Made by a program: the position numbers and the translations under genes. This document shows, piece after piece, positions 38,424-63,202 of a DNA stretch of 64,000 nucleotides. How positions within the stretch are numbered: the stretch's first letter is position 1; every line of letters starts with the position of its first letter. The notes beneath the pieces are model-generated. The model saw nothing but the letters and a program-made list of their open reading frames with translations. It did no database searches and was not told the DNA's origin. Origin of the DNA: Candidatus Methanoperedens sp. BLZ2 (GTDB taxonomy: Archaea; Halobacteriota; Methanosarcinia; Methanosarcinales; Methanoperedenaceae); contig NZ_NTMG01000074.1 in assembly GCF_002487355.1 (NCBI RefSeq), forward strand, positions 1-64,000. The letters are read 5' to 3'.

Positions 38424-38437
38424 GAAAATATAAATCG

Positions 38438-38875: not shown

Positions 38876-38928
38876 GCCAGATTTTCCCCTTCGCCTTCGC
38901 TCAGGGTCGCTTTACGCTAAAATCTGGC
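38876..38928 (+). promoter_or_regulatory. Structured leader element, copy B
   Basis: Outer arms GCCAGATTTT (38876-38885) and AAAATCTGGC (38919-38928) are perfectly complementary over 10 bp. Inside, CCCCT...AGGG forms a second stem, followed by TCG. It ends 56 nt before the RadC ATG. A CAGTT follows, as in the other copies. Confidence 0.65.
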
Positions 38929-38984
38929 CTTTCCAGTTTCTAAACTCTCCTCTGTAAAAATTTCCAATACAAGGAGGTAATCAG

Positions 38985-39671: not shown

Positions 39672-40276
39672 ATATGGCAGAAGTAAATATCTGGCAGGAT
39701 CTCTCCCCAGAAGAGGTTCGAGAGTTTATTCAATGGGCTCTTGATAACTGGAAGCCAAAAACTCCGGTGAATCCAGTATGGCATCCCCTGATAAGGCGTA
39801 CATGGTCACAAATGGACGCATCGTTCGAGACATCCAGGAAGCAGATTCTTGCTGACACGGGAGAATCTCTTTTCACTTCCAGAATGACTGAAAACGGAAG
39901 GCCTTCGATAATGAAAATACCATGGACTGTGATAGAGAAAATGGATATAAGTGCAAGCCGAATAATCGTTAACTGGCAAGAGTTCTACCTGTTCAATTAC
40001 GATGGGAACCTGCTTTTCACTCCAGAAGAGGTAGCAGCCGCACATCAAAGGTTCATCCAATACCCGAAGATAGAGAGAACATTCCCTGCATGGATACTCT
40101 CAGAGTCAGATATAAAAGGAGTGGCTGACCGCTTTGGGCTGGACCTTGAAGGAATCGATCTGGATCTTGTTGTTCATCACTTCAAGAAAGGGTTCATGCC
40201 TATGGTAGAATCGTGGGATGAGGTTCTAAAAATAGGAATCGAACAGGCCAGGTTGGAGAAGTTTATCCAGGCATAA
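39668..40276 (+). CDS. Hypothetical plasmid-module protein, 202 aa
   Basis: The ATG at 39668 overlaps the RadC stop and sits after AGGAGGCCGG. The protein has no recognised motif; Trp is frequent (residues 9-35 and 108-112). It is the second gene in the RadC operon and precedes the methyltransferase-helicase by 13 bp, so it is likely a partner of those proteins. Confidence 0.6.
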   Translation: MNMAEVNIWQDLSPEEVREFIQWALDNWKPKTPVNPVWHPLIRRTWSQMDASFETSRKQILADTGESLFTSRMTENGRPSIMKIPWTVIEKMDISASRIIVNWQEFYLFNYDGNLLFTPEEVAAAHQRFIQYPKIERTFPAWILSESDIKGVADRFGLDLEGIDLDLVVHHFKKGFMPMVESWDEVLKIGIEQARLEKFIQA

Positions 40277-40289
40277 GAACGGAGGGGTT

Positions 40290-43421: not shown

Positions 43422-43978
43422 TAGAAATAAAGAACGGCAGGATATATTTCTACAACACGTTAAAATCCGATCTCAGGGTTCTGGACTTCATGTGCCTGTC
43501 AGCATATGTCTGCCCGGTATGCAAGAATGTCCTTCGCGCTTATTTTGTGGGAAATATAACACCGGAAGCACTTAAGGAATATATGGAAAAAGACACCATG
43601 AAGTACGCCTACGAAATGGGAAGCACCCAGGGAGCGCAGTGGATAAAGCTGCGTGATCATTCTCATAAAGAGACCTGCAGTTGGCAGATAGTCGGGGCCA
43701 TATCAAAAGGCATAGATAATTCGGTCAAGTCTTTTATCGATATCCATGAAGTTAAGATAAAGGATAAACAACTGCTAATAAGAGCAATAGAAGAGGGAGT
43801 AATGCCTGGATTCAAAAAAGTGCCTGACGAGATCGGAGCCGATTTGCCAATGTTGATTTTCAAAGAGAACGATCTTCTGGACACCAAGAATATGTCGTTT
43901 GATAAGAAGTGGGAGCTCCTCAGGAATCTCGGCAAGTGTATAGAAACAGTTCTTGAAACAATTAGATTACCTCAGTAA
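43418..43978 (+). CDS. Zinc-finger plasmid protein (paralogue of 21410 gene)
   Basis: This 186-aa protein begins with IEIKNGRIYFYN and has SAYVCPVCKNVLRAY (CxxC) and DHSHKETCSWQIV. The 304-aa protein at 21410 has the same N-terminal part plus a DUF6573 region that is missing here. The ATG overlaps the helicase stop by 4 nt (ATGA), so it is translationally coupled. It is the last gene of the RadC operon; the next operon starts after leader copy C. Confidence 0.65.
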   Translation: MIEIKNGRIYFYNTLKSDLRVLDFMCLSAYVCPVCKNVLRAYFVGNITPEALKEYMEKDTMKYAYEMGSTQGAQWIKLRDHSHKETCSWQIVGAISKGIDNSVKSFIDIHEVKIKDKQLLIRAIEEGVMPGFKKVPDEIGADLPMLIFKENDLLDTKNMSFDKKWELLRNLGKCIETVLETIRLPQ

Positions 43979-43985
43979 CGTTGAA

Positions 43986-44035
43986 GCCAGATTTTCCCTC
44001 GCTTCGCGAGGTCGGGCGCAGCCCTAAAATCAGGC
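43986..44035 (+). promoter_or_regulatory. Structured leader element, copy C
   Basis: GCCAGATTTT (43986-43995) pairs with AAAATCAGGC (44026-44035) with one mismatch. Inside are CCTCGC-ttc-GCGAGG (perfect), TCG and GGGC-gca-GCCC (perfect 4-bp). It begins 8 nt after the upstream stop and ends 61 nt before the ATG at 44097. Confidence 0.65.
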
Positions 44036-44096
44036 GTTTTCAGTTTCAGAATATCCCATTGAGCACAAGCTCTCAATATATAAGAGGTGATGTAAA

Positions 44097-46235
44097 ATGG
44101 ATCTCAATGCTCTACGAGTTTTCGATAGCATTCATTCACTCTCTATCACCGAAGAGGAGTTTTCCGATCTGGAGAGAGAACAGAAGGCCACGGATAGAAC
44201 TGGCGTGTATATTCGATGCGTCAGGCAGGGCTATTCCATAGCCGTCAGCCATGATGAGAACCACAAAATCATAATCAGGGAAATAAAGAAAGATTTTCCT
44301 ACACCGTGTAGAGTTCTGTTTAAGACTCTCATACCCTTCGATGAACTGCCAGAGGAGATATATACGCTTCATGCAATCGCGCAGTACAGGGCGCTGGATA
44401 CCGATATGAAATTCAGATCCAATAACATGGAAGAGTTAAAGGACAGGATATGCGAGAGGTTCATTGATAACTTCCCCAAGGAGCTCGGGCGTTTTTACGA
44501 TGACACTCACTACAACGAACTGCACTCTTATGATGAAGATAAGAGAGCTACATGGGGAGAGCTAAAGACAAAGCTCATCGAAAGACAGCTACGGGCTCTT
44601 TTCTGGCTTTTTGGCGAGGATTACGAGAAGTTTGAGAGAGAAGTTAAGGTTGCCAGGAAAAACGTCCCCAGGATCATCAAAGTCTTCGAGAGGAACAACA
44701 GAAGGATGGCTATCATCCAGAGGTCAGATGATTACGAGAAGAGAAGGGGAGGTATGATGTATAACCCCGCATGGTTCGAATCCGTGAAGGGCAATGTCCT
44801 TATGATCAGGTGCTTTAAGCCAGGCAATCCTCAGTACAACTATGTAGACCTTAACCGGGAAATGTATCTTCCGAATGGGATAGATGAAACTGCAGAGATA
44901 TGGCTGGATGATGACCTTTTTGAGAAAATAGACTATCCGGAACTGAAAGTTTTTTCAAAACGGCTTTTCTCAGGAAGGGAGGCAGAGAATCTCAACGGCA
45001 AGAGATGGACTCTCCTTACAGCTGACGAGTTCAATAAAAAGCAGACTCTTCTACGAATTGAGGTGATGAGCGCGACAAGGCATCACCAGGAAGAGGAAGC
45101 GAAGAAAGCACTTGTAAAGAATATAGAGGCGCAGTTCAAAAAGGGAAAGGTAGTAAGACAGGGTATTACGTTCACGAAGAATAGCATAGAATGTGAAGGC
45201 GTTCTCGTTAAAAACGATAGGCTGGGTCATTTTGTGATGCGTAATAACATTCATCTCCAAAGGGAACCGGAGTTCTCGAAAATAGTAAAGGACTTCATTT
45301 GTTTTATTCTGAACATAGATGCAGTATGGAGCAACTATTCTTCTGGAGTGAATTACGTATGTAATTTCGCTGGAAAAGAAACAATACTGATCGGAAAAGT
45401 GAAGCTGTGTATTGAGAACCGGAAAAATAGCATTTTTGTAAATGACCACAGGATAGCAAAGAATGACCTTGTAGATGTAATATTCACAGCTCTGTTTCAC
45501 AGGAATCAGAATGATTTCGATCAATATCTGGCATACAGTTCAAGGGTTAATCTGACACTGCAGAAGGTTCTCTCAGATGGTGGGATCTCATTTGAACTCA
45601 AGATAGATAAAACAACAGATAATGAGCTTCCAACAGATGAAGCTAAGATGATCCTTTCGCTGCCTTTACATCGCGAGAAGAATAAGAATTTCACCACTAT
45701 CAATGGAACGGATTATCAGATACAGGATTTAAACGCGTTCTTTGATCTTGGGAAGGACATTAACAGCGCGAGGATAGGTTACGGAGGTGGCGGATATCTC
45801 CAGAGAACAATAAGGCTTCTGTATAAGGCGATCAAGGGGATATCACCAAAAGAGATCGGAGAAATAATAAAGAACGGTGAACAGGAATATGCAAGGTTAC
45901 AGGAAAGAAGACGCCTGGAGAATGCAGAGAAGTTAAAGAAAGCAAACGGTTTCCTGGCAGAGGCAGTAAGGCTTAGTAAGGCCGAGAAGTTAAAAGATGG
46001 CTACTTAGTGGTCGGTAAGAGCGGGAAGCCATACACAGTTAACTCAAATACCCTTGCAGTGTACGATATGGAGAATGGCGGCAAGGGGAGATACTGTTGC
46101 ATTGTGGATATGGGTACATCAACAGATGAAGAATGGGGACGCAAGGATGCCCTGGCTAAAAGACTCTTGATGTTAGCGCACGACCTCAAAGTAGCAGATG
46201 AAATTCATACGTTAGAATTGGAGCCAGAGTTATGA
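44097..46235 (+). CDS. Large plasmid-module protein, unknown
   Basis: This 712-aa protein is charged, mostly helical, with a GGGGYLQRTIRLLYKAIKG segment at ~560-580 and a coiled-coil-like GEQEYARLQERRRLENAEKLKKA at ~595-620. No catalytic motif is seen. GAGGTGATG precedes the start. Its stop overlaps the ATG of the E1-like gene, so it may function with it. The gene follows leader copy C, so the two probably form the second operon of the module. Confidence 0.6.
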   Translation: MDLNALRVFDSIHSLSITEEEFSDLEREQKATDRTGVYIRCVRQGYSIAVSHDENHKIIIREIKKDFPTPCRVLFKTLIPFDELPEEIYTLHAIAQYRALDTDMKFRSNNMEELKDRICERFIDNFPKELGRFYDDTHYNELHSYDEDKRATWGELKTKLIERQLRALFWLFGEDYEKFEREVKVARKNVPRIIKVFERNNRRMAIIQRSDDYEKRRGGMMYNPAWFESVKGNVLMIRCFKPGNPQYNYVDLNREMYLPNGIDETAEIWLDDDLFEKIDYPELKVFSKRLFSGREAENLNGKRWTLLTADEFNKKQTLLRIEVMSATRHHQEEEAKKALVKNIEAQFKKGKVVRQGITFTKNSIECEGVLVKNDRLGHFVMRNNIHLQREPEFSKIVKDFICFILNIDAVWSNYSSGVNYVCNFAGKETILIGKVKLCIENRKNSIFVNDHRIAKNDLVDVIFTALFHRNQNDFDQYLAYSSRVNLTLQKVLSDGGISFELKIDKTTDNELPTDEAKMILSLPLHREKNKNFTTINGTDYQIQDLNAFFDLGKDINSARIGYGGGGYLQRTIRLLYKAIKGISPKEIGEIIKNGEQEYARLQERRRLENAEKLKKANGFLAEAVRLSKAEKLKDGYLVVGKSGKPYTVNSNTLAVYDMENGGKGRYCCIVDMGTSTDEEWGRKDALAKRLLMLAHDLKVADEIHTLELEPEL

Positions 46236-46819
46236 AGATTCTTATAATCGGGGCTGGCGGCATTGGATCGTATCTTATCGCAGAGGTTTGCAGGTTAATC
46301 GAGATAGAACAGATTGACCCAAATACGGATCTGGTAATTGCAGATAATGACCTGGCAGAAATGGAGCAGGTAAAGTACCAGAATTTCACTTTTGCGGAAG
46401 CCGGATTGAACAAGGCCCAGGCATTGGCAAAAAGGTTCAAGCACGTTGGCGTTACAGCGATAAAGGACAGAATAAAATCGGATAAACAGCTCAAAGGCTA
46501 CGATCTCATATTTCTCTGCGTGGACAATGATCCAACAAGGGAACTGGTCATAAAATACTGTTTCTCAAAAAAAGTGGATTTCCTGGATCTGCGCTCTTCC
46601 GGAAGGACGGTATCAGCATTCCCAAAGTTAGAGAAAGCCAGTGATAATCTGAAGTTCGTTGATAGCAACGATACGGCCTGCTATTCTTGTCAGGACCGCG
46701 AAAACCTGCTAATGGGCAGGATAGATGAAGGGAATAAGATAGTTGCCCTTATTGGAGTTCAGATGATGCTGAACAAGTTCCGCGGGATGAATAACAGGGC
46801 GATTAACCTGGCAATATGA
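46232..46819 (+). CDS. E1/ThiF-family ATP-binding protein
   Basis: This 195-aa protein is a Rossmann-fold adenylating enzyme: ILIIGAGGIGSYLIAEV, ADNDLAEMEQVKYQNF (the D-x-D/E...QN type motif), KAQALAKRF and LIFLCVDNDPTREL. CYSCQ (residues ~148-152) may bind zinc. It resembles the ThiF/PRTRC-type plasmid E1 proteins that activate small Ubl or sulfur carriers. No transfer Cys is certain. Its start overlaps the 712-aa gene by 4 nt. Confidence 0.75.
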   Translation: MKILIIGAGGIGSYLIAEVCRLIEIEQIDPNTDLVIADNDLAEMEQVKYQNFTFAEAGLNKAQALAKRFKHVGVTAIKDRIKSDKQLKGYDLIFLCVDNDPTRELVIKYCFSKKVDFLDLRSSGRTVSAFPKLEKASDNLKFVDSNDTACYSCQDRENLLMGRIDEGNKIVALIGVQMMLNKFRGMNNRAINLAI

Positions 46820-46844
46820 AACGCAATTCGTTCAAGGCGAGTGA

Positions 46845-46861
46845 GCAGGTTCAAACCCTGC
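46845..46861 (+). other. T-arm-like hairpin before 46907 gene
   Basis: GCAGG-TTCAAAC-CCTGC is a perfect 5-bp stem with a 7-nt loop, identical in form to a tRNA T-arm. No tRNA body surrounds it. It lies 45 nt before the ATG at 46907 and may act as a leader hairpin or be a tRNA scar. Confidence 0.35.
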
Positions 46862-46906
46862 CATGCGCATTCCCCTCGGTAGAGGAGAACATAAGGAGAG
46901 ATCTAA

Positions 46907-47407
46907 ATGGAACATGATTTGACAGACAGAATCCCCTTCAGGATAGAAAGCAAGCGAGGGGACGATACTCTCGGAACGAATACGAAAACCGGGACGGTAT
47001 TAACTGATTTCGAAGCAACAGAGAAAGGAGTACCGTTTCAATCCGGCGTCCCCAGGGACAAGATACTGGAAGCAATAGAGAAGGCATTGAAACAGGAGAA
47101 ATGGGTCTGTGTGGAAAAGAAGGATGGAACCACTGAGCTCCTAACGCAAAAGGATATCCCGAAGGTCCAGGATGAGAATGCCATTGAACCGGCAGTCATG
47201 GTCAATAGCGGAAATCGGGAGGATACATCACAGCCTCCAAAAAAGGAATGGGAAGGAGATTTAAAACCTATGCAGGTATCAACAAAGAAACCAGGGGTTA
47301 CAAATCAAACGATAGATCCGGTTCATGCGAAGCAAAAGGAAGAATGGGTCAGCAAGTTCGCAAATATAAAAAGCGCAACAGCAACCCACAAGGGCAAAGG
47401 TGGTTAA
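46907..47407 (+). CDS. 166-aa protein ending in Gly-Gly, Ubl candidate
   Basis: This protein follows the E1/ThiF-like gene. Its N-terminal half is folded-looking (IPFRIESKRGDDTLG, RDKILEAIEKALKQEKWVCVEKKDGTTELLT); the second half is low-complexity and charged. It ends GKGG, the kind of C-terminus that E1 enzymes activate on ubiquitin-like or sulfur-carrier proteins. The caution is that the last codons, GGTGGT, also form the ribosome binding site for the next gene. AAGGAGAG precedes the ATG. Confidence 0.55.
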   Translation: MEHDLTDRIPFRIESKRGDDTLGTNTKTGTVLTDFEATEKGVPFQSGVPRDKILEAIEKALKQEKWVCVEKKDGTTELLTQKDIPKVQDENAIEPAVMVNSGNREDTSQPPKKEWEGDLKPMQVSTKKPGVTNQTIDPVHAKQKEEWVSKFANIKSATATHKGKGG

Positions 47408-48204: not shown

Positions 48205-50079
48205 TCAAAAATCATGGGTTTCAACTAATCCGGACTCATGTAACATACTATATAACGATGTTATATGAGATATGCTGCCTGGGTAGCGATTATTAGGTCT
48301 ATTTTCACAAAATGTAAAAATAACTCGCACTTTGGCTCTTGAAAACGCTACAAAAAAAGCACAAGTATCCTCTTCAGGTTGTTTTCTGAAATTCCAAAAT
48401 GCACCATTTTCCAAACCGATGAAAATAATAGTATTATATTCGAGACCTTTGCTTTTATGTATTGTCATGAGAGGGAGGGAATCTTTTCCTCTCAAAGATT
48501 CAACAGATTTTACCCAATTGTCATATGATTCAAATTCTTTCCATAAATATTTGGATAATTCATTAATTTGTTGGATGAAGAATGTACCCTGCTTATATTG
48601 AGGATAATGATTCAAAAATTTTTCTTTGCCAAAAAAATCTATTATTTTATATAATCCTGATATCAATTCTTTTTCATTAGTTATGCCTAAGAATAATTTG
48701 TAAATTTTTTCAATTTCTAAATTGAATTTTTGATCAAATAATCTCAGTTTCTCGTAATCCGAATCTTCGTCCAAATAGAATGATTTCATTAATTTTGTAA
48801 GTTCGCGTGTATTCAACCATTCTTCTTTTGCACTTTTAGAGATGGCACACATAATTACATCCAATAGTATTCTGACACATTCTTCCGATATCAAGTCTTG
48901 TAGCTTACTTTCATTTCTTATCTTTACATCATATTTTGCCATTTCATTGATCAAATTGCCACAATACTCGTCTGGTAATTGTTTTACAATGATGCAAATA
49001 TCATTAGGATTCAAACCATCATCATCAATCCATTTTTTTATTTCATGTGAAATGACTTCTGCCTCTTTTTGGCTATTCTTGAAGTTCCATATTTCGCAAA
49101 CTCCATCTTCATCGTCCCAACCTTCATGTGCAGATATGTTATTATTATCACCACTTATATTTTCTATCAGTATCTTTTGTATTTCAATAAGTCTGGGAGC
49201 TGAACGATAATTCATTAATAATTCACATGTTTCGGCATCAAAATCGTCTTTAAATTTATTAAATACTTCTACATCTGCTCCTGCCCATACCATTATCCTT
49301 TGTTTTTTATCGCCGACTGCAGTTAATATCGTATTTGTATTAAAAAAACATGTTTTAATAAGATCATATTGATATGTCGTAGTATCCTGAAATTCATCTA
49401 AGAAAACATGACTGTAAGATAAAACAAGAGCGGTATGAATTTTCTTATTTTCTCGTATCAAAAACTCACTTAATCTTGAAATCATTGAGAATGATAATTT
49501 TGATTGTGTCTCAGACCCTACCTTTAAACCATTCATCCAAACTCTGAATATTAGGGCATTTAAATCCCAATTTGAACCAGAATCTAGAGGCAACCTCTTA
49601 ACTGATAGATACTTCCAATATTCTTTTTCTTCGCTCTTCAAATTCAACTTAGGAACTGGCCTAAGCGAACCAAAATATTGATCAAACATTTTTTTATCGT
49701 CAAAAACGATCTCATAGTTTTGGGACGGCCTATAATCATTTGGCAAAGCTTTCCTAAAATGATCAAGAATTCCTTTGGCAAATGAATCATAAGTGAGTGA
49801 AACAAATCTTTGAGCTAAATCATCCCCACATCTCTTTCTAACTCTTTCTGCAAGATTTTTTGCTGCATCTTTCTTGAAGCTAATAGCAAGTATCTTTCTT
49901 GGCCATTTACAAGTATTTGTTTGCAGCAAAAAACAAGCTCTTTGAGCAAGTAGTTCTGTTTTTCCCGCTCCAGGGCCAGCAAGTACACAATAATTTTTCG
50001 ATGATTTAACTGTCTCCAGAGCTTTTTTTTCCAAATCTAAATCATTTACTGGTTTCCAATCAACTGGAGTAATTCTCAA
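48205..50079 (-). CDS. gajB: Gabija helicase GajB (UvrD-like)
   Basis: This 624-aa superfamily 1 helicase has VLAGPGAGKTELLAQRACFLL (motif I), VFLDEFQDTTTYQYDLI (II) and PLMTIHKSKGLEYNTIIFIGLENGAFW (a UvrD-type motif V/VI region). It probably starts with TTG at 50079, after TAGGTGATT. In known Gabija, GajB is the second component, activated by DNA ends or nucleotide depletion, and acts with the GajA nuclease. The gene lies 10 bp downstream of gajA on the same strand. Confidence 0.85.
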   Translation of the reverse strand: MRITPVDWKPVNDLDLEKKALETVKSSKNYCVLAGPGAGKTELLAQRACFLLQTNTCKWPRKILAISFKKDAAKNLAERVRKRCGDDLAQRFVSLTYDSFAKGILDHFRKALPNDYRPSQNYEIVFDDKKMFDQYFGSLRPVPKLNLKSEEKEYWKYLSVKRLPLDSGSNWDLNALIFRVWMNGLKVGSETQSKLSFSMISRLSEFLIRENKKIHTALVLSYSHVFLDEFQDTTTYQYDLIKTCFFNTNTILTAVGDKKQRIMVWAGADVEVFNKFKDDFDAETCELLMNYRSAPRLIEIQKILIENISGDNNNISAHEGWDDEDGVCEIWNFKNSQKEAEVISHEIKKWIDDDGLNPNDICIIVKQLPDEYCGNLINEMAKYDVKIRNESKLQDLISEECVRILLDVIMCAISKSAKEEWLNTRELTKLMKSFYLDEDSDYEKLRLFDQKFNLEIEKIYKLFLGITNEKELISGLYKIIDFFGKEKFLNHYPQYKQGTFFIQQINELSKYLWKEFESYDNWVKSVESLRGKDSLPLMTIHKSKGLEYNTIIFIGLENGAFWNFRKQPEEDTCAFFVAFSRAKVRVIFTFCENRPNNRYPGSISHITSLYSMLHESGLVETHDF

Positions 50080-50089
50080 ATTTAATCAC

Positions 50090-52135
50090 CTATGTAGCTA
50101 CTTGTTTTAAAGAAGAAAAAGGATCATTTTTTAGCTCGGATGCAATTGCATTAACTACTTTTTTTAGTGATTCAGGCATATTTTCTTTAAACGAGGAAGT
50201 ATCCAGCATTGTCATTGCGAGAATGTGGGTCCCAGGTTTTCCTCGGTCAAGGAATAAATAAGGGTACCACAACATCAACTCTTTCTCAAAATCTTGATAA
50301 GAATTTCCATTTCCACCACTTTCTTTCAATGTATGTCTAATACATGTCTCTATTTTTTTAGTGTATCCATTATTATCAGTTTCTTTGTCTGGTATACGAG
50401 GGCCTTCTCCGGTTGGTACAGTTCTCTGGTAGTATTCCTTGAAGGCTTTTAGCATTGAAAAGTCAAGATCTAGAGGAGATGAAAAATATACTCCATAACT
50501 TTCAAGGTGTTGTACCCAAGACATCATTGTTTGTCCGTCCTCCTTTGAATTTAACGGCCATGTGTGCATAGAGTCAAGATCAGATTGCGTAAGACCACTT
50601 TTTCCACAAATATCATCAAATGATATACCATTTTCTATAAGTTGATTTATTACATATTTTATTATCCCCCAACCTCCTGTCGCACGTTCAGAGTCTAAAT
50701 CAAGAAGAGTAATAAAAGGTATTTCAATCTCACTTAATAATTTCCAAAAATGATTGACGAATCTGCCACCCAATGGAACAACGCATATTCCACACGAGTC
50801 TATCTTTGAACCAAGAGTTTCTATCGCTTTTGGAATAATGATAGATTCTGTGTCTCCTTCACCAAATACGACTAATCTAGCAAAGTATATTTCGGGATAA
50901 CAAGTAACTGCTTCTTTTACATACTTGTGTGCATCATCTACTTTATCAGGTAGTAAGATTTTATTTACTTTTGTACATAAATTCTCTTTGCTTATTCTCA
51001 AATGGCGAATTGATTCGGGTTTAATTCTTTTTACTATTGAAGGAGAATGAGACGTCAGTATCACTTGAGAATTCTTTTTCTTAGAGATTTGATCTAGGTT
51101 GTCAATTATCCTCCCTAAAAGTTGAGGTGCTATGTGGTTCTCTGGTTCTTCAACAGCTAGAATGGTTAAAGCTGGAGGCAATAAATTAAATGCCTTTTCT
51201 TCAGCACTTTCAGTTTGAGATATAAATTCAATCTCAAGCAATGAATTCACTAGAGACAAATAGAATAAGGATTTTAATCCTTCTCCCAAGGAGTTAATAT
51301 TGTAAGACTTTGGAATTTCCGTAGGAGAAAACTCAATATCAATTTTGTTCAAAATACTATTTAAATCGCTATTTGTAAATTTAATTTTGGTTTCTGTGTA
51401 TCTGGAATCTTTATGAAAAGACTGCCACTGAGTCTGAATAATCGTTTGTACTTGTTTAACTCCAACTTGATTATCAAAGATAGAGTTAACGGGTTTCATA
51501 TTATTGTTAATTTGCTCATTGATATCCTTAGGCCAATTAATCCCATTTAGAATTCTCCAAAGTATAGTACCAGAAGCATTTTTCAACTGGTGCGAAGGTT
51601 CTCTTACAGCGGGAACATAAATCATTTGAATATTTGATCTTATATCACTTACTTTCGCAGGAGATCTATTATCTTCATTCCCGTCATCTTCTTCTCTTGA
51701 TACAGTTATAAATGATAGTTTCGAATCGATGTCACCATCAGGCGTATTATTTTTTTTCCAACAAGCATCTAATCGAATTCTGATATAAGGATCACCGTCA
51801 ACATCCTCTACGACCATTCTCTGAAATAAATTAGGCACAGTTTTCTCAGCTGCCGTTTTGTCAGTCACTAATTCAGGGAAGGAAATAATAGCTTCAATGA
51901 TTAGATCATTTTCATCTATTTCCTCGGGTTTTTTTCCCATAGGTACATGGAAATCGGATCTTTTGATTTCCCTCTCTTCTCCATTCCTGCCAAATAACTT
52001 TAGTAAGGCCCCTAATATCGCGGATTTTCCACTGCTATTAGCACCAATTATACTAGTTAAATTATCAAACTCAATAGTTTCCTCATCTGACCCGAAACAT
52101 CTGAAGTTTTTAAGAATGAGTTCTTTAATTATCAT
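50090..52135 (-). CDS. gajA: Gabija nuclease GajA (OLD-type ATPase-TOPRIM)
   Basis: This 681-aa OLD-type protein has Walker A IIGANSSGKSAILGALLKLF at the N-terminus, LAVEEPENHIAPQLLGRII and VILTSHSPSIVKRI (ABC-type signature and switch) at about 325-370, and a TOPRIM domain with VVFGEGDTESIIIPKA and FITLLDLDSE. GajA is a DNA nuclease that, in characterised Gabija systems, is regulated by nucleotide levels. The gene precedes gajB by 10 bp, and both are AT-rich, in keeping with the island. Confidence 0.85.
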   Translation of the reverse strand: MIIKELILKNFRCFGSDEETIEFDNLTSIIGANSSGKSAILGALLKLFGRNGEEREIKRSDFHVPMGKKPEEIDENDLIIEAIISFPELVTDKTAAEKTVPNLFQRMVVEDVDGDPYIRIRLDACWKKNNTPDGDIDSKLSFITVSREEDDGNEDNRSPAKVSDIRSNIQMIYVPAVREPSHQLKNASGTILWRILNGINWPKDINEQINNNMKPVNSIFDNQVGVKQVQTIIQTQWQSFHKDSRYTETKIKFTNSDLNSILNKIDIEFSPTEIPKSYNINSLGEGLKSLFYLSLVNSLLEIEFISQTESAEEKAFNLLPPALTILAVEEPENHIAPQLLGRIIDNLDQISKKKNSQVILTSHSPSIVKRIKPESIRHLRISKENLCTKVNKILLPDKVDDAHKYVKEAVTCYPEIYFARLVVFGEGDTESIIIPKAIETLGSKIDSCGICVVPLGGRFVNHFWKLLSEIEIPFITLLDLDSERATGGWGIIKYVINQLIENGISFDDICGKSGLTQSDLDSMHTWPLNSKEDGQTMMSWVQHLESYGVYFSSPLDLDFSMLKAFKEYYQRTVPTGEGPRIPDKETDNNGYTKKIETCIRHTLKESGGNGNSYQDFEKELMLWYPYLFLDRGKPGTHILAMTMLDTSSFKENMPESLKKVVNAIASELKNDPFSSLKQVAT

Positions 52136-52388: not shown

Positions 52389-54551
52389 TCACGATATTCC
52401 ATAAATAAGCAAGTTTTTCTGCATTTTTCCCTTCATAAGTTCATCCAGCCGTTCCTGCGTGTACCCGAAGGGCAGCAACATGCTCTCCGCAGCCCGCAGC
52501 AAATGTTCATAGTATTTCGCCCTGTCGTACTGTGTGTCATCGTCTGCAAGTTCCGGTATCATAACCCGTTTCTGCCAGCTTCTGGATTTATGATCTGTTA
52601 TTATATAGCGAATACTCTGCCCCGCCAGTGTCTCTATACCTTCCTGTTTAAGTTGCTTCATGGCAGCCAATTGGTTATTGAACTGCCTGTACTCATCGCA
52701 GCCTCTGGATACATGTGTCTTGAATATCAGGTCAGAAAATTCACAATCATTACCAAGCACTTTTCTTGTATATTCCCGCAATAAACCGATAGCTTCAGGT
52801 ATCTTCATGTAAAATTCGGAAGCGTTTTTTGCTTCTGCAAGCTTTCCAAGCATGGCGTCCTGCAGGTTACTGATCAGCTTTGGAGTATCGCTCCGTCTTG
52901 TTTCAATGCCCCGCACTTTCAGCTTGCCGTTTGTCATTACCCCATAATATCGGTTCAGAGCACCAACTCCATTTGATTTATCAGGCAGGAACACGATCCA
53001 CCTGAACTCGCCTTTAAGCTCAAGAGGTATGCCGATTTCATGGGATGCAAGTTCACAGAGTTTCTCAGGTTCGCGCCCTTTTACCCACAGACTATCCACT
53101 ATGCCGTGCAGTATCTCAAAACCCATGTCGTCTGCAAGCTCTATTGTGCGAAGCAAGATATCCCGTCCATATGCTGTTATGGATTCATGACATTCTATTC
53201 TCCCAAACCGCGCTTTGTTAAATCCCATGTAACCAAAGCTTGTCACAAGCAGCCATTTGAGTATGTTCTGTTTCATCTCGTATTCTTCTGCTCTCAACGG
53301 GAACTCTATAATGCGTCTCTTGTAGGTCATCCGCCTTTCTATCAAAGGCTTTAGAACACGCGGGATTAATCCTATATGCTGCTGGCAGATGTTGTAGTGC
53401 GTAAACGGAACGCGCTTTTCCGAATCCGGGCAGCATCCGCATAACACTGTTTCAGGCGATATGTTGTGTTTCACCATGATATTTGGGAAAAGCGATGTGA
53501 AGTCTATCTCAAATGCGTTCTCATGCAGTCCTACTTTCGGCTCTATAACTAAAGCACCCCTGTCAGCAATGAGGAGTTCCTCAGCCGTTTTCCAGTATTC
53601 TGCAAGGTTGCGCTTCCAGGGAACGAGTACGCCATCACGCAGAGCCTGATTAACCTGAAGTGCCGTCACAGCACTGCCGGGACTCAGGCGCGATAGCTCC
53701 TGCATCGGTATCCCTGTTATGCGGGAAAGGTCGATCAACCCAAGCAGACCTCCTTCCCTGAAAACAAAGATTGATCTGTCAAGATGCAGCCGGCCTGAGA
53801 GCATATAGCCTTTCGGCTTATAGATTATCCTGCCGTAGCTGAAATACGATTTTCCACTTCCTTCTGGCAGGATATCTTTCTCTCTTCCAAGCTGAAGATC
53901 GATATCATGAAGCGATGCGCGGTAATGCAGATACGGCAGTTCAAAACTATCTCCTTTTTCTGTTATTATCAGGTCCGGGTTAGCACGAGCGACTTCGCGA
54001 TTGAGTTCAGCGATCATTTCTCCTTCATCCTTATTTTCAATAAAGGTGTTCCCGAGGGTAATCCTGCTGATAGGGTCGCCCATTGTGATAATTCCTTTTT
54101 CCCTGCCTGGCGTTACCGAGAGTTCCATGCTTACAAGCTCAGGTATTTCATAATCAATGGAATACTGGCTGTCATCGAGAACATCTCCTTTGAGTCTTGC
54201 CATGGGAAACAGTCCATGTTCAAGCATATACTGCCTGACGGGATCGAGATCTATATTGTACAGGCTACATCCCTTCGCCTCAAGCATATTGGCAATCTCA
54301 TAAACTGCATTCGGTTCTATGGTAGCAGATATTACTTTTTCAGGTCCTTTGCCAAGCCAGGTGCTCTTCTCTTCGTAATTTGTGTGTTTAACACCGGGCA
54401 GGCTCGCTACCAGGGACAGAAGTTCGGGTTTGCACGAAATGTATATCCTCGGATAGAATACCTCACGGACTGGCCTGCAGACTGCCCCATCTTTAATCCA
54501 TCTTGTTATCGTGCTATTCTCAGGATTATATCTCACGTCCAGCAGGAACAT
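52389..54551 (-). CDS. polB2: Family B DNA polymerase, PolB2/Dpo2 type
   Basis: A 720-aa protein (ATG at 54551 after GGAGGCG). It has an N-terminal and exonuclease-like region where the ExoI acidic pair is not conserved (ELVSMELSVTPG), the palm motif EIDFTSLFPNIM, the fingers helix (LLVTSFGYMGFNKARFGRIE) and HGIVDSLWV in place of the usual YGDTDS of motif C. These departures mark PolB2, which was long thought inactive; I recall that a homologue (Dpo2) has been reported as a lesion-bypass enzyme. It is the third gene of a probable stress operon. Confidence 0.8.
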   Translation of the reverse strand: MFLLDVRYNPENSTITRWIKDGAVCRPVREVFYPRIYISCKPELLSLVASLPGVKHTNYEEKSTWLGKGPEKVISATIEPNAVYEIANMLEAKGCSLYNIDLDPVRQYMLEHGLFPMARLKGDVLDDSQYSIDYEIPELVSMELSVTPGREKGIITMGDPISRITLGNTFIENKDEGEMIAELNREVARANPDLIITEKGDSFELPYLHYRASLHDIDLQLGREKDILPEGSGKSYFSYGRIIYKPKGYMLSGRLHLDRSIFVFREGGLLGLIDLSRITGIPMQELSRLSPGSAVTALQVNQALRDGVLVPWKRNLAEYWKTAEELLIADRGALVIEPKVGLHENAFEIDFTSLFPNIMVKHNISPETVLCGCCPDSEKRVPFTHYNICQQHIGLIPRVLKPLIERRMTYKRRIIEFPLRAEEYEMKQNILKWLLVTSFGYMGFNKARFGRIECHESITAYGRDILLRTIELADDMGFEILHGIVDSLWVKGREPEKLCELASHEIGIPLELKGEFRWIVFLPDKSNGVGALNRYYGVMTNGKLKVRGIETRRSDTPKLISNLQDAMLGKLAEAKNASEFYMKIPEAIGLLREYTRKVLGNDCEFSDLIFKTHVSRGCDEYRQFNNQLAAMKQLKQEGIETLAGQSIRYIITDHKSRSWQKRVMIPELADDDTQYDRAKYYEHLLRAAESMLLPFGYTQERLDELMKGKMQKNLLIYGIS

Positions 54552-54792
54552 TCGGTTTCGCCTCCTGCAATGAAATGATTTCTTTCTCTTGCTCAATTAA
54601 AATAGATAGGAAAACAGCTTGCATCAGGTCAATTGTGGGTGTAACAGTACAGGAGGAAGCGTGCTTTCTTGCCTTGTTCATGAGGTTATCGAACGCATCC
54701 TTATCCTCACCGTGCAGAGCCATTCTGAATACCGAAAGCTCTGCTATCATTTCCTCAAGCAACATCCGAAAGCTAGGCACTGTTCTTCCCAT
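54526..54792 (-). CDS. Small helical protein of the polB2 operon
   Basis: The ATG at 54792 is 8 nt after GGAGG. The 88-aa product is helical (FRMLLEEMIAELSVFRMALHGEDKDAFDNLMNKARKHAS) and overlaps PolB2 at its 3' end and the RadA-like gene at its 5' end. Such a small helical gene between an inactive RadA paralogue and PolB2 is known from archaeal PolB2 operons. It may be an adaptor. Confidence 0.6.
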   Translation of the reverse strand: MGRTVPSFRMLLEEMIAELSVFRMALHGEDKDAFDNLMNKARKHASSCTVTPTIDLMQAVFLSILIEQEKEIISLQEAKPNVPAGREI

Positions 54793-56701: not shown

Positions 56702-58444
56702 TCATGAAGATTCCTTTTCTTCTTTTATTGGTGTATTTAATATTTCAATCAGATCATCGACTTTTTGTTTAGGAAAGTATTTCTGGTATCGGCTCAAGAT
56801 AACATCAACCATTATAATGTACATCTCATAGGCAGTACTCAATATAAAAATCTCTTCATCGATTAGTCGTTCGTTTTTATATAATGACGTAGCTATTGAA
56901 GGATGTGAATGCAGCGATATGATGTCTGACAACTCGTGGAACACATCTTTCATATACTTCTCTTTATATAACGTACCATAATCTATTTGCCAGTGAATGA
57001 ATGATGGAGAGAACCATTTTGCAGAAGAATAATTTTTTTCATTAATTAGATTGAAAATCTTTTTTGGGTATTTTTTTTCCTGAAGGTAAGACCTGAAACC
57101 TTCGTAATCCATCGCTGCATACCATTTTATATTCTCGTTGAATATAGATCTCTGAATACACAATTGTTGAAGGTCGCCCCATCTTTTTATCTCGTTAGGA
57201 TGCTGATGAAAGTACAATACCATTTGAGCAGATTCAACAATAAAACGCAGAATTGCCTGTGACTCAGAGTATTTGCGATAATTATTAAAATCAATGATTG
57301 TATGGATCAAGATACTATTGTTCAATAAAATTGCAGACAATACACTAAACAGGTCTTTATTCTCATCTCCCTCTATTTTATTGATGTCCAAGTCTATGAC
57401 ATATACTGTTTTTTCAGAGAGTCCAAAATATCTTTTTGCCAAATCAAAATAGAAATTCGTTCTCTTTGGGTTCTGCTTTCTTTCAGTCTGATATTCCTTC
57501 ACGAGATCATCTGGGAGTGGACAATTTGCTTCATGGATAATTTTCTGTCCGTTATGTATCGGCAACTGAATAAAACCCTTGGTTTTAATTTCCTGAATAT
57601 TAACTTTGTCGTTATCCGATGATTCTAGCATGTCGATGATTTTATCAAATGTGTTTTTGTCAAGCACCTTCAACATTGACAATAGTAATAAGTGCATTTC
57701 GTTGGCAGTTTTTTCAGGAATAAAGGTCCGAATCTCATTGAATATTATTTTCAAAACGATTTCAGTGAAACTCAATGCTGTCATTAGGTTTTCTAATTCC
57801 ACTTCAATGTCTTTTTCCAATGGTTCAAAAAGAGTGAAAGAAGGGTGCACGTCGTTGCTGAGGATATTGTAATAATTGCGCAAATTCCGTTTCTGTTCAT
57901 AGTTTGTTAAACCATGAATGTATTTTTCATAATCGATATTCGAGCATATGAAAATCGGATCAAATGTAAGTGATCTTTTGTAATATTCTTTAGTTATATG
58001 GGAAGTATCCCTATATCCTCTATTTTTGATTAGTTCCTCATATCCTTCAAAAGTTAAATGACTATATTCGTTATACGTTTTCTTATCAACAACCTTGTTC
58101 ATCAATATCCCCTGAAAATCAATCCATCTCCTAGCCTCATCTGGATATTTGTCAAAATATTGAATCAGCAGCGTTATTTCCATCATGGTTCTCAATATGA
58201 TGCTTGCTCCGCGATAATTTCTTTTTGTGTTCATCATAATCACGGAATCGGAAAGGCTAAAAAGTTGCCAATGCAGATTAATTATAGCGGTGAGTTTTGG
58301 ATTGTTTAAGTTTATTGATTCCAACATCTCCCTGTCGATTTCCTTGATTGCAATTGGATATTTTTCATGATATATTAGCAGGATCATGTAGATTTCATCA
58401 TATTCCTGCTCATGTTGTGTATAATTCTCAGTCATTGTGTCCAA
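56702..58444 (-). CDS. Tandem-duplicated domain protein (DUF5677-like?)
   Basis: This 580-aa protein contains two copies of a ~180-residue helical unit. Copy 1 (about 75-265) has RGASIILRTMMEITLLIQYF, RRWIDFQ, TFDPIFICSNIDYEKYI, DVHPSFTLF. Copy 2 (about 370-560) has AILRFIVESAQMVLYFH, IKRWGDLQQL, FSPSFIHWQIDYGTLY, SLHSHPSIATS. The shared [DS]xHPS motif resembles the DUF5677 and HEPN-like families; I am not sure of either. It is on the same strand as the viperin gene, 217 bp downstream, and may be its partner. Confidence 0.5.
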   Translation of the reverse strand: MDTMTENYTQHEQEYDEIYMILLIYHEKYPIAIKEIDREMLESINLNNPKLTAIINLHWQLFSLSDSVIMMNTKRNYRGASIILRTMMEITLLIQYFDKYPDEARRWIDFQGILMNKVVDKKTYNEYSHLTFEGYEELIKNRGYRDTSHITKEYYKRSLTFDPIFICSNIDYEKYIHGLTNYEQKRNLRNYYNILSNDVHPSFTLFEPLEKDIEVELENLMTALSFTEIVLKIIFNEIRTFIPEKTANEMHLLLLSMLKVLDKNTFDKIIDMLESSDNDKVNIQEIKTKGFIQLPIHNGQKIIHEANCPLPDDLVKEYQTERKQNPKRTNFYFDLAKRYFGLSEKTVYVIDLDINKIEGDENKDLFSVLSAILLNNSILIHTIIDFNNYRKYSESQAILRFIVESAQMVLYFHQHPNEIKRWGDLQQLCIQRSIFNENIKWYAAMDYEGFRSYLQEKKYPKKIFNLINEKNYSSAKWFSPSFIHWQIDYGTLYKEKYMKDVFHELSDIISLHSHPSIATSLYKNERLIDEEIFILSTAYEMYIIMVDVILSRYQKYFPKQKVDDLIEILNTPIKEEKESS

Positions 58445-58661: not shown

Positions 58662-59510
58662 TCATTTCTTCCAGTCATATAATCCATCTCTTCCCAGGTA
58701 CTTACCTATATCCACCACGCTTTCTGGATTATTCAGGAAATCATCGAATTCAAATGTTTGGTATGAACCACTTGAGTTTGATATTACCTTTCCAGATGGT
58801 GATAATATCAAATAAGAACCTTTCATATCCTCGTTGGACTCAAAAACGGGTTTAGTCCCTCCTGTTAAGCGGATATGTTTGTGTCGGTTAATAAAATCGT
58901 TGAATTCCTCATCCGTGATAGCAAGTTCTTTCACACAATTATCATTTTGTCCTTTTATGTGAAGCATTTGGAATGCTTTCCATCTATGAGGATTCATCCG
59001 ATGGATCAATTGATGCATATTCTCGCGATATGTCATTTTCGTGACGGTAGTGTTAACTTTCAATTTTATACCCTGTTCATGAATAAGGTCAGAAACTTCT
59101 ATTGCATGGCTTACATGCTTCCCTTTACCCCTTGCAAGCTCAGCTTCCTTCAAATTGCTGATCGAGTCAACGGATATGCCTATCCAATCCGTGTACTTCC
59201 CGATCTCTGCTATGTTTCGGTCATTGATAAATGAACCATTGGTAACAATGGAAGTGGTAAATCCAAGAGCGTGCGCCATCTTAAGCAGTTCATAAAAAAG
59301 AGGATGTAAAAATGGTTCGCCCCCTACGAAATTAATTTTCTCGATGTTAATATCATCTGTTTTAGAATCTTTCAGCTTATTAAGTACGGAAAATGCCTCA
59401 TTAAGATCCAAAATTTCAGTATCAAGTCTCTGGACATAACAAAACTTGCATTTATAGTTGCATTTTGCGGTTATGTGCCAATTTATCGATTTTATTGTTC
59501 TATCTTTCAT
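58662..59510 (-). CDS. Viperin-like radical SAM enzyme (pVip)
   Basis: This 282-aa radical SAM protein shows all viperin hallmarks. WHITAKCNYKCKFCYVQ carries the 4Fe-4S CxxxCxxC with the viperin NYKC. NFVGGEPFLHP follows, then SVDSIS, KVNTTVTKM, RWKAFQMLHIKGQND, TDEEFNDFINRHKH, and FESNEDMKGSYLILSPSG. In viperin these elements bind SAM and an NTP substrate and convert it to a 3'-deoxy-3',4'-didehydro-NTP chain terminator. The ATG at 59510 is used. Leader length is near zero, since a TATA-like ATTATATT is ~25 bp upstream. No nucleotide kinase is adjacent. Confidence 0.85.
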   Translation of the reverse strand: MKDRTIKSINWHITAKCNYKCKFCYVQRLDTEILDLNEAFSVLNKLKDSKTDDINIEKINFVGGEPFLHPLFYELLKMAHALGFTTSIVTNGSFINDRNIAEIGKYTDWIGISVDSISNLKEAELARGKGKHVSHAIEVSDLIHEQGIKLKVNTTVTKMTYRENMHQLIHRMNPHRWKAFQMLHIKGQNDNCVKELAITDEEFNDFINRHKHIRLTGGTKPVFESNEDMKGSYLILSPSGKVISNSSGSYQTFEFDDFLNNPESVVDIGKYLGRDGLYDWKK

Positions 59511-59548
59511 CAAACCATAATCGGTATTGAAAAATATAATAATTCTTT

Positions 59549-59578
59549 AGTTTTATCAATAGTATTATAGATAAAACT
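59549..59578. promoter_or_regulatory. Palindromic operator between viperin and CARF genes
   Basis: AGTTTTATC (59549-59557) and GATAAAACT (59570-59578) are perfect 9-bp inverted repeats with a 12-nt spacer. The palindrome lies next to the viperin TATA-like box on one side and 51 bp before the CARF gene ATG on the other. A dimeric wHTH protein could bind it. Confidence 0.55.
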
Positions 59579-59629
59579 ATAAGTTAGTAGAATTAATGTA
59601 AAGATAGTATTTAGAGAGTTGTGCAATAA

Positions 59630-60385
59630 ATGTCCGAAGAAGAAATTATTCACGTTATGAGTGCAGGAGCAAGTGTACACCTGACCTTTCCTGTTGCAGT
59701 TAATGAAATATCCAGGGCAACAAAGGTCTATGTCATTGTCGAAGATAGAGTGTATCAAGATTCAGAGGTTAAGGATAAACAGGAAATGCGTGAAAAAATC
59801 AGAAATTCAATAAATGAACTCAAAAAAATCGCATCTCCTTTTGTTAAAAATGGCATTCATGAAAAAAGGATACCTAAAGATACGCTTGAATATATTCGGA
59901 ACGCGGTCATAGAAATTTATACTGAAAACCGAGATGCTAACTTCTTCTTTAATGTTTCAGGGGGTACAAAACAACTATCGATTGGTCTTTTTTTGATGGG
60001 ATTATGGATAGAAGCGGTTCCATATCTTGTTGATCAGGATTTAGATGCAACAAAACTCTCTGTTCCAAGAATCCACATAAAGGATCTTACAGAAAATCCT
60101 AACCGCGTATTGATATTAAATATACTCCAAGAACAAAAGTCCAAACGATTATCAAGAAAGGATCTTTTCGATAAGGTAAAACAAGAATATATACAAATAA
60201 GAAAACCTAAGGAGAAAAGGGAATTGAAACAAGGAATTTTTAATGCTCTTGTAGAGAATTTAATTCAATGGGGTTTGATATATGTAAATTACAGGGAAGG
60301 AAGTAAGAAAGAGAAAGTATATCAAATAACTCCTGATGGAGAATTTACATTAAACTTTGTCAAGTTAAAACAGAATACAAGTTAA
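59630..60385 (+). CDS. CARF-like sensor with wHTH domain (DUF6293-type)
   Basis: This 251-aa protein has an N-terminal Rossmann-type CARF-like fold (IIHVMSAGASVHLTFPVAVNEI, NFFFNVSGGTKQLSIGLFLMGLW, the nucleotide-loop signature) and a C-terminal winged helix (RVLILNILQEQKSKRLSRKDLFDKV, LIQWGLIYVNYR, EKVYQITPDGEF). CARF-wHTH proteins bind cyclic oligoadenylate or related nucleotides and regulate transcription (Csa3, HFX_2341-like). It is divergent from the viperin-like gene and could act as its regulator through the palindrome between them. Confidence 0.75.
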   Translation: MSEEEIIHVMSAGASVHLTFPVAVNEISRATKVYVIVEDRVYQDSEVKDKQEMREKIRNSINELKKIASPFVKNGIHEKRIPKDTLEYIRNAVIEIYTENRDANFFFNVSGGTKQLSIGLFLMGLWIEAVPYLVDQDLDATKLSVPRIHIKDLTENPNRVLILNILQEQKSKRLSRKDLFDKVKQEYIQIRKPKEKRELKQGIFNALVENLIQWGLIYVNYREGSKKEKVYQITPDGEFTLNFVKLKQNTS

Positions 60386-60621: not shown

Positions 60622-61485
60622 ATGCCAGTATTAAGCATAATTGTATGCGGTATGCTTGAAGATGAACTCGCATATGTTCTCTCAAGCGATAGGGAGCTTG
60701 TCCAGTTGATACTTGTAGAGAACGGTGAACATTTCGGGCTGCAAAGGAAACTAAAATCCCTGGGATGCTTTCCAACGCTTATTCCACTGGATAGAGTTCT
60801 GGAAATCCTGATTCGAGAAAACAACCAAACCCTTCCGACAATCCTGAAACCACTCTGCCGCTTTAATTTTATCAAAAAAATCGTCAGCAAAATGGAAAAC
60901 CAGCATAAACCAAAAGTAACAGTTGTAGCCAATATGTTGAGACGGGGACTACATGCCGATGTTGAAATGGTAAGAGTAGAAGTTTACAGGAAAATCATGG
61001 AAATGTCCCGGTTTTCAGACAGGATTCTCATTTTCTACGGCACATGTGGGCATTCACTTTCGAACCTGGAAAAAGATTTTGAAAATCTTGGGTGCCAGCT
61101 TTACTTCCTGAAAGACGAAAAAGGTGAGATTGTTGAGGATTGCATCAGCCTGGCGCTCGGAGGGAACGATGTCTATGCACGATCCCTAGTCAATGGCGAA
61201 GGTACTTTTTGCCTTACCCCGATGTGGGCTTCAAATTGGGAGGAGAAGTCGAAAGATAATGCGATTCTTTCACCGGAGTCTGATACAAAGTATCTGAAGC
61301 TGTACGGAAGAGCTGCAAAGATCAATACAGGGCTTTCGTATGAACCTGACTTTGATAAAAATGTCCGGGATTTTGCGCGGTTTTTCGATTTGAAGATCGT
61401 GGAACTTCAGGGGAGTAAAAAGATAGCGGAACAAAGTTATCAGAACGCTAAAAGGTTTCCTCGAAAAGATGGGACGAATATTTAG
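60622..61485 (+). CDS. DUF1638 family protein
   Basis: This 287-aa protein has the DUF1638 pattern: LSIIVCGMLEDELAYVL, KDEKGEIVEDCISLALGGNDVYA, LILFYGTCGHSL-like segment and CLTPMWASNWEE. DUF1638 is found mainly in methanogens and other anaerobes near corrinoid methyltransferases; its function is unknown. It is followed closely by the interrupted O-methyltransferase, so they may be one unit. Confidence 0.75.
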   Translation: MPVLSIIVCGMLEDELAYVLSSDRELVQLILVENGEHFGLQRKLKSLGCFPTLIPLDRVLEILIRENNQTLPTILKPLCRFNFIKKIVSKMENQHKPKVTVVANMLRRGLHADVEMVRVEVYRKIMEMSRFSDRILIFYGTCGHSLSNLEKDFENLGCQLYFLKDEKGEIVEDCISLALGGNDVYARSLVNGEGTFCLTPMWASNWEEKSKDNAILSPESDTKYLKLYGRAAKINTGLSYEPDFDKNVRDFARFFDLKIVELQGSKKIAEQSYQNAKRFPRKDGTNI

Positions 61486-61905
61486 TTAGCTTTGATCATA
61501 TTATTAGGTATGAAGAGAATTGTGCAAAAAAAAATCGAGCAGTATTGCCAGGAACACACAAATCCGGAGTCAAAGCTTCTTCATGAACTTGTAACTGAGA
61601 CTTTTGCACATACAGCTTTTCCAGAAATGGAAATAGGACATCTTGAGGGAGCATTTCTTAGGATACTGGTGAGGTTACTTCGAGCAAAACGAATCCTTGA
61701 ATTAGGAACATTTACAGGTTACAGTTCGCTTGTTATGGCAGAAGGATTACCCGATGATGGTAAGCTGATCACCTGCGATATTGACCCTGAGACTACTCAA
61801 ATCGCCAAAAAATACTGGAGCAGGAGTCCACATGGGAAGAAGATTGAACTCAGGTTCGGTCCTGCCCTTGAAACACTCAAGACTATTGAAGGTCTCTTCG
61901 ACTTA

Positions 61906-62912
61906 GAGCCTGTATGAAAATTCCTTTTTTATGAAATGGAAGAACCTCTTCGAGCCAATCGCTTAAGCATTAAATGGATCATACCAGCATAAATCATTGA
62001 TTCACTTGATTCTGACAATCCTTCGTAGTCTTTACTCAAACGCCTATAACGACCCAACCATCCAAATGTACGTTCTACTACCCATCTTCGGGGAAGAACC
62101 TGAAAACCTTTTACATCATCACTACGCTTTACTATTTCCAATACCCAACAGCAATGTTCTTTGACCCAACCAATCAATTTTCCCGCATAACCACCATCAG
62201 CCCAAATCAGGCTCATACGAGATGATTTTCCAATATATTTTTCCAGAACAAGCTTGGCTCCATCTCGATCCTGTATATCGGCAGCATGCACTATTACCAT
62301 GAGCAAAAATCCCATCGTATCCACCAAAATGTGGCGTTTTCTTCCTTTTATCTTCTTACCAGCATCATAACCACGCACACCGCGAGTTTCAGTTGTTTTT
62401 ACTGATTGGCTATCTATTATCGCTGCGCTTGGTTCTGGTTGGCGACCATCAGCGATTCGCAATTCACTCCTCAAATCAGTATTTATTTGTTCCCAGATCC
62501 CTTTCAAACGCCAGAGACGGAAATAATGGTATACGGTGCTCCAAGGTGGGAAGTCATGGGGCATCATGCGCCATTGGCAACCTGAACGCAATATATAAAA
62601 AATAGCATTAAATATTATTCGAACAGCATGTTCACGTTTTCTGCCTCGTTTTGTTTTTGGTTTTGGAATGTGAGGTTCAACCTTTTGCCAATCCTTATCG
62701 GATATATCAGACTGATATGATATCATAAATAAATTTACCTTAGCATCAAAATTGTTGAACTAAATATTTAAAATTTTTTTATTAAATATAAAAAATTGAT
62801 ATATTCTATTGTTTTTGAAAAGTTGGATTATTGAATTGTTATTTATAATTAAAATAATATGAAAAATAATTATTTGACCTGACATTGTAAAATTTATTTT
62901 TCAGACAGGCTC
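61906..62912. mobile_element. IS5-family insertion sequence, 1007 bp
   Basis: Terminal inverted repeats GAGCCTGTATGAAAA and, from the other end, GAGCCTGTCTGAAAA bound it. The target is duplicated as TTA (61903-61905 and 62913-62915). One transposase on the minus strand lies between. It is the only complete IS in the window. Confidence 0.9.
61929..62726 (-). CDS. IS5-family transposase
   Basis: This 265-aa single-frame transposase has an N-terminal WQKVEPHIPKPK, the DDE core (AIIDSQSVKTTETRG, WADGGYAGKLI, VVERTFGWLGRYRR) and a GKKIKGRKRHILVDTMG segment, typical of the IS5/IS1031 group. All catalytic positions appear to be present, so it may be active. It spans nearly the whole IS. Confidence 0.9.
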   Translation of the reverse strand: MISYQSDISDKDWQKVEPHIPKPKTKRGRKREHAVRIIFNAIFYILRSGCQWRMMPHDFPPWSTVYHYFRLWRLKGIWEQINTDLRSELRIADGRQPEPSAAIIDSQSVKTTETRGVRGYDAGKKIKGRKRHILVDTMGFLLMVIVHAADIQDRDGAKLVLEKYIGKSSRMSLIWADGGYAGKLIGWVKEHCCWVLEIVKRSDDVKGFQVLPRRWVVERTFGWLGRYRRLSKDYEGLSESSESMIYAGMIHLMLKRLARRGSSIS

Positions 62913-63202
62913 TTAGTTTTTATCGACGCTGACAAAGTGAATTATATTAATTATTGGGAATTGTGCTTACCAAAAATCCGATCTGGTGGTCTATTGGTAA
63001 TTGATAATGTGCTCTGGAGTGGATCGGTTCTTAACCCGGAAGATGAAACTGAAAGAGCAATAGATGAATTCAACAAACATGTATATTCTGATAAACGTGT
63101 GGAAGTGGTAATGCTCCCGATTCGTGATGGTGTAACTCTTGCCTGGAAATTCTAAAGCGGAATGATCAGGATGCCGTATATTGCTAAAAAAAATCTGGAA
63201 AA

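Follow-up and report, generated by a model that had tools for sequence, protein, structure and literature searches.

The window, a 64,000-nucleotide stretch of Candidatus Methanoperedens sp. BLZ2 DNA, carries a prokaryotic viperin gene that is divergent from a gene for a CARF-wHTH protein, with a perfect inverted repeat between them. We propose that this is probably an antiviral locus in which viperin is governed by its own dedicated, nucleotide-responsive switch. Viperin is an antiviral enzyme that makes chain terminators (ddhNTPs), and animal viperin is induced by interferon; no description of how prokaryotic viperins are switched on was found in the open literature. The features of the locus are as follows.

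58662–59510, minus strand: prokaryotic viperin (radical SAM ddhNTP synthase family)
59630–60385, plus strand: CARF-wHTH (Csa3-like) protein, probable transcription regulator
59548–59579, no strand: perfect inverted repeat TAGTTTTATC-N12-GATAAAACTA, putative operator common to both divergent promoters
56702–58444, minus strand: protein with DUF5677 in tandem, following viperin on its strand

The window encodes a prokaryotic viperin

Judged by its sequence, the 58662–59510 product is a true prokaryotic viperin and would be expected to synthesize ddhNTPs. It had been called a viperin from its motifs in an earlier, sequence-only reading, and profile searches bore this out. The protein scored 260.8 bits against NF038283 (NCBIfam), passing the cut-off of 180 by 80 bits, and 256 bits against PADLOC pVip, where the best model was the one for viperins not associated with kinases; viperins in the PDB matched at E about 1e-36. 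Membership of pVip was defined by a CxxxCxxC radical SAM motif plus GGEP, RWKxFQ, ESxxxMxxSY, and a C-terminal GGxYxW-like motif. The window protein has CNYKCKFC, NFVGGEPF, RWKAFQ, and ESNEDMKGSYLI, with ESNEDMKGSY corresponding to ESxxxMxxSY, and its C-terminal motif is GRDGLYDW, in which D replaces the usual first G of GGxYxW. The ATG at 59510 is preferred as the start codon over the TTG at 59513, where the listed open reading frame begins. In a tree whose outgroup was radical SAM proteins from the same genome, the window protein groups with the viperins and is not placed outside pVip; its nearest relatives are those of loci L085 and L084, and identity is 70% at best. The CARF-paired viperins are scattered over several clades of this tree. 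Compared with the known pVip enzymes (NF038283, PDLC02903), which were reportedly described by Bernheim et al. in 2021, the window enzyme is of the same family, has all of the sequence motifs, and lies above the curated cut-off, but its locus lacks a kinase and instead has its own divergent CARF regulator and putative operator.

The missing kinase had already been remarked on, and it proved to be a local feature: there is none beside viperin in the window, whereas a VakA-type kinase gene lies beside viperin in five of the pair loci in relatives. The duplicated-domain protein recorded downstream of viperin is a tandem DUF5677 protein (PF18928 matches two stretches) whose halves match each other at 25% identity (E = 6e-16). 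It is separated from viperin by 218 bp and was not found beside viperin in relatives by neighbor clustering; whether it belongs to the viperin system is uncertain.

A protein of about 1000–1300 aa adjoins viperin in 15 of 21 pair loci, on the viperin strand in most; four of these proteins were scanned, and all four match PADLOC "TPR" (PDLC02907). An archaea-only viperin-TPR system is mentioned in PMC12988326. The 15 loci resemble that system in having the TPR protein downstream of viperin, but PDLC02907 had no match in the window or elsewhere in its own genome. An R-N-x3-H motif is present in 15/15 TPR proteins (L072:3426–6425, L079:2270–5317, L085:2462–5911, and those of 12 more loci) and in 9 from named loci, a partly overlapping set, and is C-terminal in most. 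The resemblance of this motif to the HEPN RNase signature is a hint at such a function; Pfam found nothing in the TPR C-terminal domain, and its Foldseek matches were non-significant, with HEPN toxins among other helical bundles. Profile comparison of the DUF5677 protein as an equivalent of this domain was negative, and the idea was dropped.

The divergent gene encodes a Csa3-like CARF-wHTH protein

The protein encoded at 59630–60385 is a CARF-wHTH protein with a predicted fold like that of Csa3 from end to end, and it probably acts as a DNA-binding transcription regulator. It matches the PADLOC "Csa3" family (PDLC02909) at 332 bits. Matches to Pfam CARF, HFX_2341_N, and DUF6293_C were all under the cut-offs (PF19810, 22.9 of 30 bits; PF22665, 15.7 of 27 bits, Pfam gathering scores), and the Pfam profile Csa3_N (PF22662) gave no match. 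The CARF-like/wHTH identity first proposed was upheld by the PADLOC score and the Csa3 fold but not by the CARF/DUF6293 Pfam scores.

An AlphaFold2 model built with 13 homologues had a mean pLDDT of 90.9, and a Foldseek search of the PDB with it returned almost only CARF proteins (Can2, Cdn1, Csm6, Card1, Cam1, Csx1, and ring nucleases). Most of the top structural matches are cyclic oligoadenylate receptors. Csa3, the one with a CARF-wHTH architecture among these matches (2wte, 6wxq, and 6w11), gave the highest TM-scores, about 0.6/0.7, at 12% identity, and 2wte and 6wxq aligned with the model over its full length, covering both the CARF and the wHTH domains. Residues expected of a CARF pocket are kept (the S-A-G loop, Asn108, and Gly112). 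Csa3 recognizes cA4 through specific residues, including Arg98 (PMC8844856), in the motifs T-hydrophobic-G-F-D/N-E and L-x2-G-hydrophobic-R; by motif comparison, the window protein has S-A-G-A-S-V and V-S-G-G-T-K at these positions, and Arg98 is replaced. Because these Csa3-specific residues are replaced, we refer to the protein as a Csa3-like CARF-wHTH regulator and not as a strict Csa3.

The Csa3a and Csa3b proteins of Sulfolobales (2wte and 6wxq) have the same CARF and wHTH architecture and a palindrome upstream of the core promoter, but beyond the low identity and the altered cA4 motifs, the window regulator differs in that it sits beside viperin with no cas gene alongside, and genomes with the pair usually lack Cas10. 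Other archaeal CARF-like wHTH regulators are HFX_2341 (DUF6293; Haloferax, PMC11434293) and MM_0565 (Methanosarcina mazei, PMC7465815); these are linked with CRISPR loci or with cas genes, not with viperin, and the HFX_2341_N and DUF6293_C scores of the window protein are sub-threshold, as above.

In PADLOC-DB, a single accession block holds pVip (02903–02905), TPR (02907), Ankyrin (02908), Csa3 (02909), HicA-like (02910), and VakA (02911), from which we infer that the viperin-Csa3 association is already catalogued, probably after Bernheim et al. 2021. The window regulator matches PDLC02909 and adjoins viperin divergently, but the entry is a protein family, for which we found no operator, regulation, or signal described. 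Full-text search of the open literature turned up no account of a CARF protein regulating viperin, although an earlier description is still possible. The novelty that had been claimed for the circuit is therefore reduced: the gene association is already in PADLOC-DB, whereas what appears to be undescribed is the regulatory logic, together with its independence of type III CRISPR.

The viperin-CARF pair is conserved

Viperin was sought in 393 genomes of the window's phylum at E below 1e-40. It was found in 26, and in 20 of these a PDLC02909-type CARF-wHTH gene adjoins it. Nineteen pair loci are head to head, and in two (L077 and L078) the CARF gene is directly upstream of viperin in tandem; in L103, a shorter CARF gene is head to head with viperin. 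Among CARF loci from named genomes (Methanolobus, Methanosarcina, Methanoculleus, Methanofollis, a Methanomicrobiales MAG, and Methanocorpusculum), a divergent viperin was present in 12/12 readable cases, while of the two others, one is at the end of a contig and one has a CARF gene that is truncated. All strong PDLC02909 matches (E<1e-60) adjoin viperin except one (G085); PDLC02909-type paralogues without viperin occur in other genomes. Viperin and CARF distances are correlated (Mantel r 0.78), which shared species history could also produce. The divergent linkage suggested from the window alone is confirmed by these counts, and the pairing is neither chance nor unique to the window. It occurs in methane-cycling archaea. 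The locus is patchy, since both viperin and the CARF gene are missing from two genomes in the genus to which the window belongs. Searches of viral contigs and plasmids found no CARF relatives.

The CARF gene is absent from 6 of the 26 viperin genomes. A wHTH-like protein of about 555–591 aa adjoins viperin in four of these six (L097:6645–8318, L098:6603–8270, L099:6422–8089, and L100:4568–6343), divergently in three; a Pfam and PADLOC scan of three of the proteins gave no match. This protein is possibly an alternative viperin regulator.

Second, divergent viperin copies were seen at L070:8268–9092, L081:8774–9526, L085:5908–6729, and L080:7774–8517. The L080 copy has no CxxxCxxC motif and is probably no longer a radical SAM enzyme. 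A CARF-viperin pair closely resembling the one in Methanocorpusculum (L119) was also seen on L117 and L118, two short contigs that are assigned to one MAG of Bacteroidales and one of Acholeplasmataceae but are probably mis-binned archaeal sequence.

Operator-like elements lie between the paired genes

The inverted repeat in the window had been recorded as 9+9 bp, which is exact, and it extends by 1 bp per arm to perfect 10-bp arms around a 12-nt spacer. Its distance to the start codon is 37 bp on the viperin side and 50 bp on the CARF side, and against shuffled versions of the AT-rich sequence between the two genes it has p = 0.01. A probable viperin TATA box is centered about 27 bp before the ATG, with the putative operator just upstream of it. 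This placement resembles that of the Sulfolobus Csa3a palindrome, 12 bp upstream of BRE/TATA (PMC8699464). The palindrome is single copy in the 3.7-Mb genome; the next-best sites have 3 mismatches and are no commoner than those of a reversed-pattern control, so a wider regulon sharing this motif was rejected.

Symmetric elements are present in many of the pair intergenic regions. L073, L074, and L076 have AAATTGTTTC-N8-GAAACAATTT in common, 39 bp from the viperin start. Two copies of a half-site, GAAAYWATTT, 18–21 bp apart (about 19), are present in 9/19 head-to-head intergenic regions from several archaeal families, compared with 3/2229 control windows from the same loci and 3/691 with matched G+C; the half-site was read from the tested sequences themselves, so the comparison supports specificity more than discovery, and related loci are not independent. 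To our reading these half-sites are new here, and they would be candidate binding sites for the CARF-wHTH proteins. The window and its CARF relatives L069–L071, L079, and L081 use palindromes other than GAAAYWATTT pairs. When single palindromes were compared with shuffles, 12/20 intergenic regions were non-significant and 7/20 had p<=0.05, with one borderline. One palindrome common to all relatives was rejected. Conservation of the element thus holds for position and symmetry, which recur, but not for sequence, which differs by CARF clade; this is what a joint change of operator and regulator would produce.

Most genomes with the pair lack Cas10

To our knowledge, the signal that CARF switches sense has one well-known source only, Cas10 of type III CRISPR systems. 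By PF22335, a profile that Cas10-like minimal polymerases might escape, Cas10 is present in only 4/20 pair genomes (the window genome, G253, G362, and G121) and absent from 16/20, each estimated to be at least 96% complete; there is no enrichment relative to genomes in which the pair is absent (Fisher p = 0.77). Strong matches to type III RAMP proteins were confined to those four genomes, with one weak match each in G061 and G346, and Cas1 matches were found in 20/20. Because Cas10 is so rare among them, type III cyclic oligoadenylate cannot be the general signal, and the idea of a nucleotide second messenger needs another ligand or source. The same question of ligand source is raised by HFX_2341, which works in a genome without Cas10 (PMC11434293). 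No conserved nucleotide cyclase was found in the pair loci, where the only recurrent partners are viperin, the TPR protein, and the VakA kinase. CD-NTases were rejected as a source: SMODS matches were weak, and almost all of them fell in ORFs of about 460 aa, which are most likely CCA-adding enzymes.

These counts bear directly on cross-talk with type III CRISPR, in which Cas10 responding to viral RNA would make cA4 or cA6 that the CARF domain senses to turn viperin on. The same has been proposed for Csa3a and spacer-acquisition genes, Csa3 binds cA4 (PMC8844856 and PMC8699464), and the structural matches to cyclic oligoadenylate receptors fit. Both Cas10 and RAMP proteins of type III are encoded in the window genome, and Cas10-made cyclic oligoadenylate may act in this organism. 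Against the pattern of carriers without Cas10 and the replacement of Csa3-specific cA4 residues, however, we consider cross-talk unlikely as the explanation of the locus.

A feedback loop is also conceivable, in which the regulator senses ddhNTP, the viperin product, or a shifted nucleotide pool, with no separate messenger synthase. The missing cyclase and the rarity of Cas10 would both fit, but the CARF ligands known to us are cyclic or linear oligonucleotides and not mononucleotides, which makes this reading rather improbable.

It is very unlikely that the regulator controls only itself and other defense genes, with viperin a passenger in a defense island, despite a nearby Gabija system, the many genes changed by overexpressed MM_0565 (PMC7465815), and the paralogues without viperin, given that head-to-head linkage is kept over many genera and families, strong PDLC02909 matches are beside viperin with the one exception, and the putative operator is single copy.

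A proposed model for viperin control

In the dedicated switch that we favor, the CARF-wHTH protein would be a Csa3-like transcription factor, presumably dimeric, that binds the inverted repeat between the genes, abutting the core promoter of viperin. Its targets would be viperin, any downstream partners that a locus has (VakA or the TPR protein), and probably its own gene. In an infected cell, the pocket of the CARF dimer would take up a nucleotide ligand, the protein would change conformation, and viperin expression would rise, so that ddhNTP chain terminators are made only when needed; we take the ligand to be more plausibly inducing than repressing. Counting for the switch are the frequency of pairing, the enrichment of half-sites over controls, the single-copy palindrome near the TATA box, the Csa3 fold, and the distance correlation. 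Counting against it are the clade-to-clade variation of the palindrome, the non-significant intergenic regions, the six viperin genomes without a CARF gene, and the finding that DNA binding by Csa3Sso in vitro is unaffected by cA4 (PMC8844856).

A more specific form of the switch, which we put forward tentatively, is a Cas10-independent nucleotide alarm, in which the CARF domain senses an infection nucleotide of non-type-III origin, from an unrecognized synthase or from viperin itself, and turns on the chain-terminator operon. If true, this would parallel, in archaea, the way interferon induces viperin in animals. The lack of Cas10 in most carriers points to an unrecognized source or kind of CARF ligand. 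With a conserved divergent regulator and a recognizable operator, viperin switching becomes testable in culturable methanogens (Methanosarcina and Methanolobus).

Genomic surroundings

Beyond the CARF gene and elsewhere in the window, the following features were recorded.

60622–61485, plus strand: DUF1638 protein (Pfam score well over the cut-off), immediately past the CARF gene
48205–52135, minus strand: complete Gabija system (PADLOC)
48205–50079, minus strand: GajB-type helicase (745 bits)
50090–52135, minus strand: GajA (843 bits)
35937–47407, plus strand: run of SNF2-type helicase, RadC-like, methyltransferase-helicase, and ThiF-like genes
52389–54596: B-family DNA polymerase, after this run
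61929–62726, minus strand: IS-type transposase, within 61492–63155

DUF1638 was not seen as a recurrent neighbor of the pair by neighbor clustering. The 35937–47407 run, in which RadC and ThiF were assigned by reading only, resembles a mobile element backbone. Also by reading only, the transposase appears to split an O-methyltransferase-like gene (61492–61917 and 62937–63155), and an IS-like end sequence, TTCAGACA(A/G)GCTCTTAG, has a similar counterpart near the window start.
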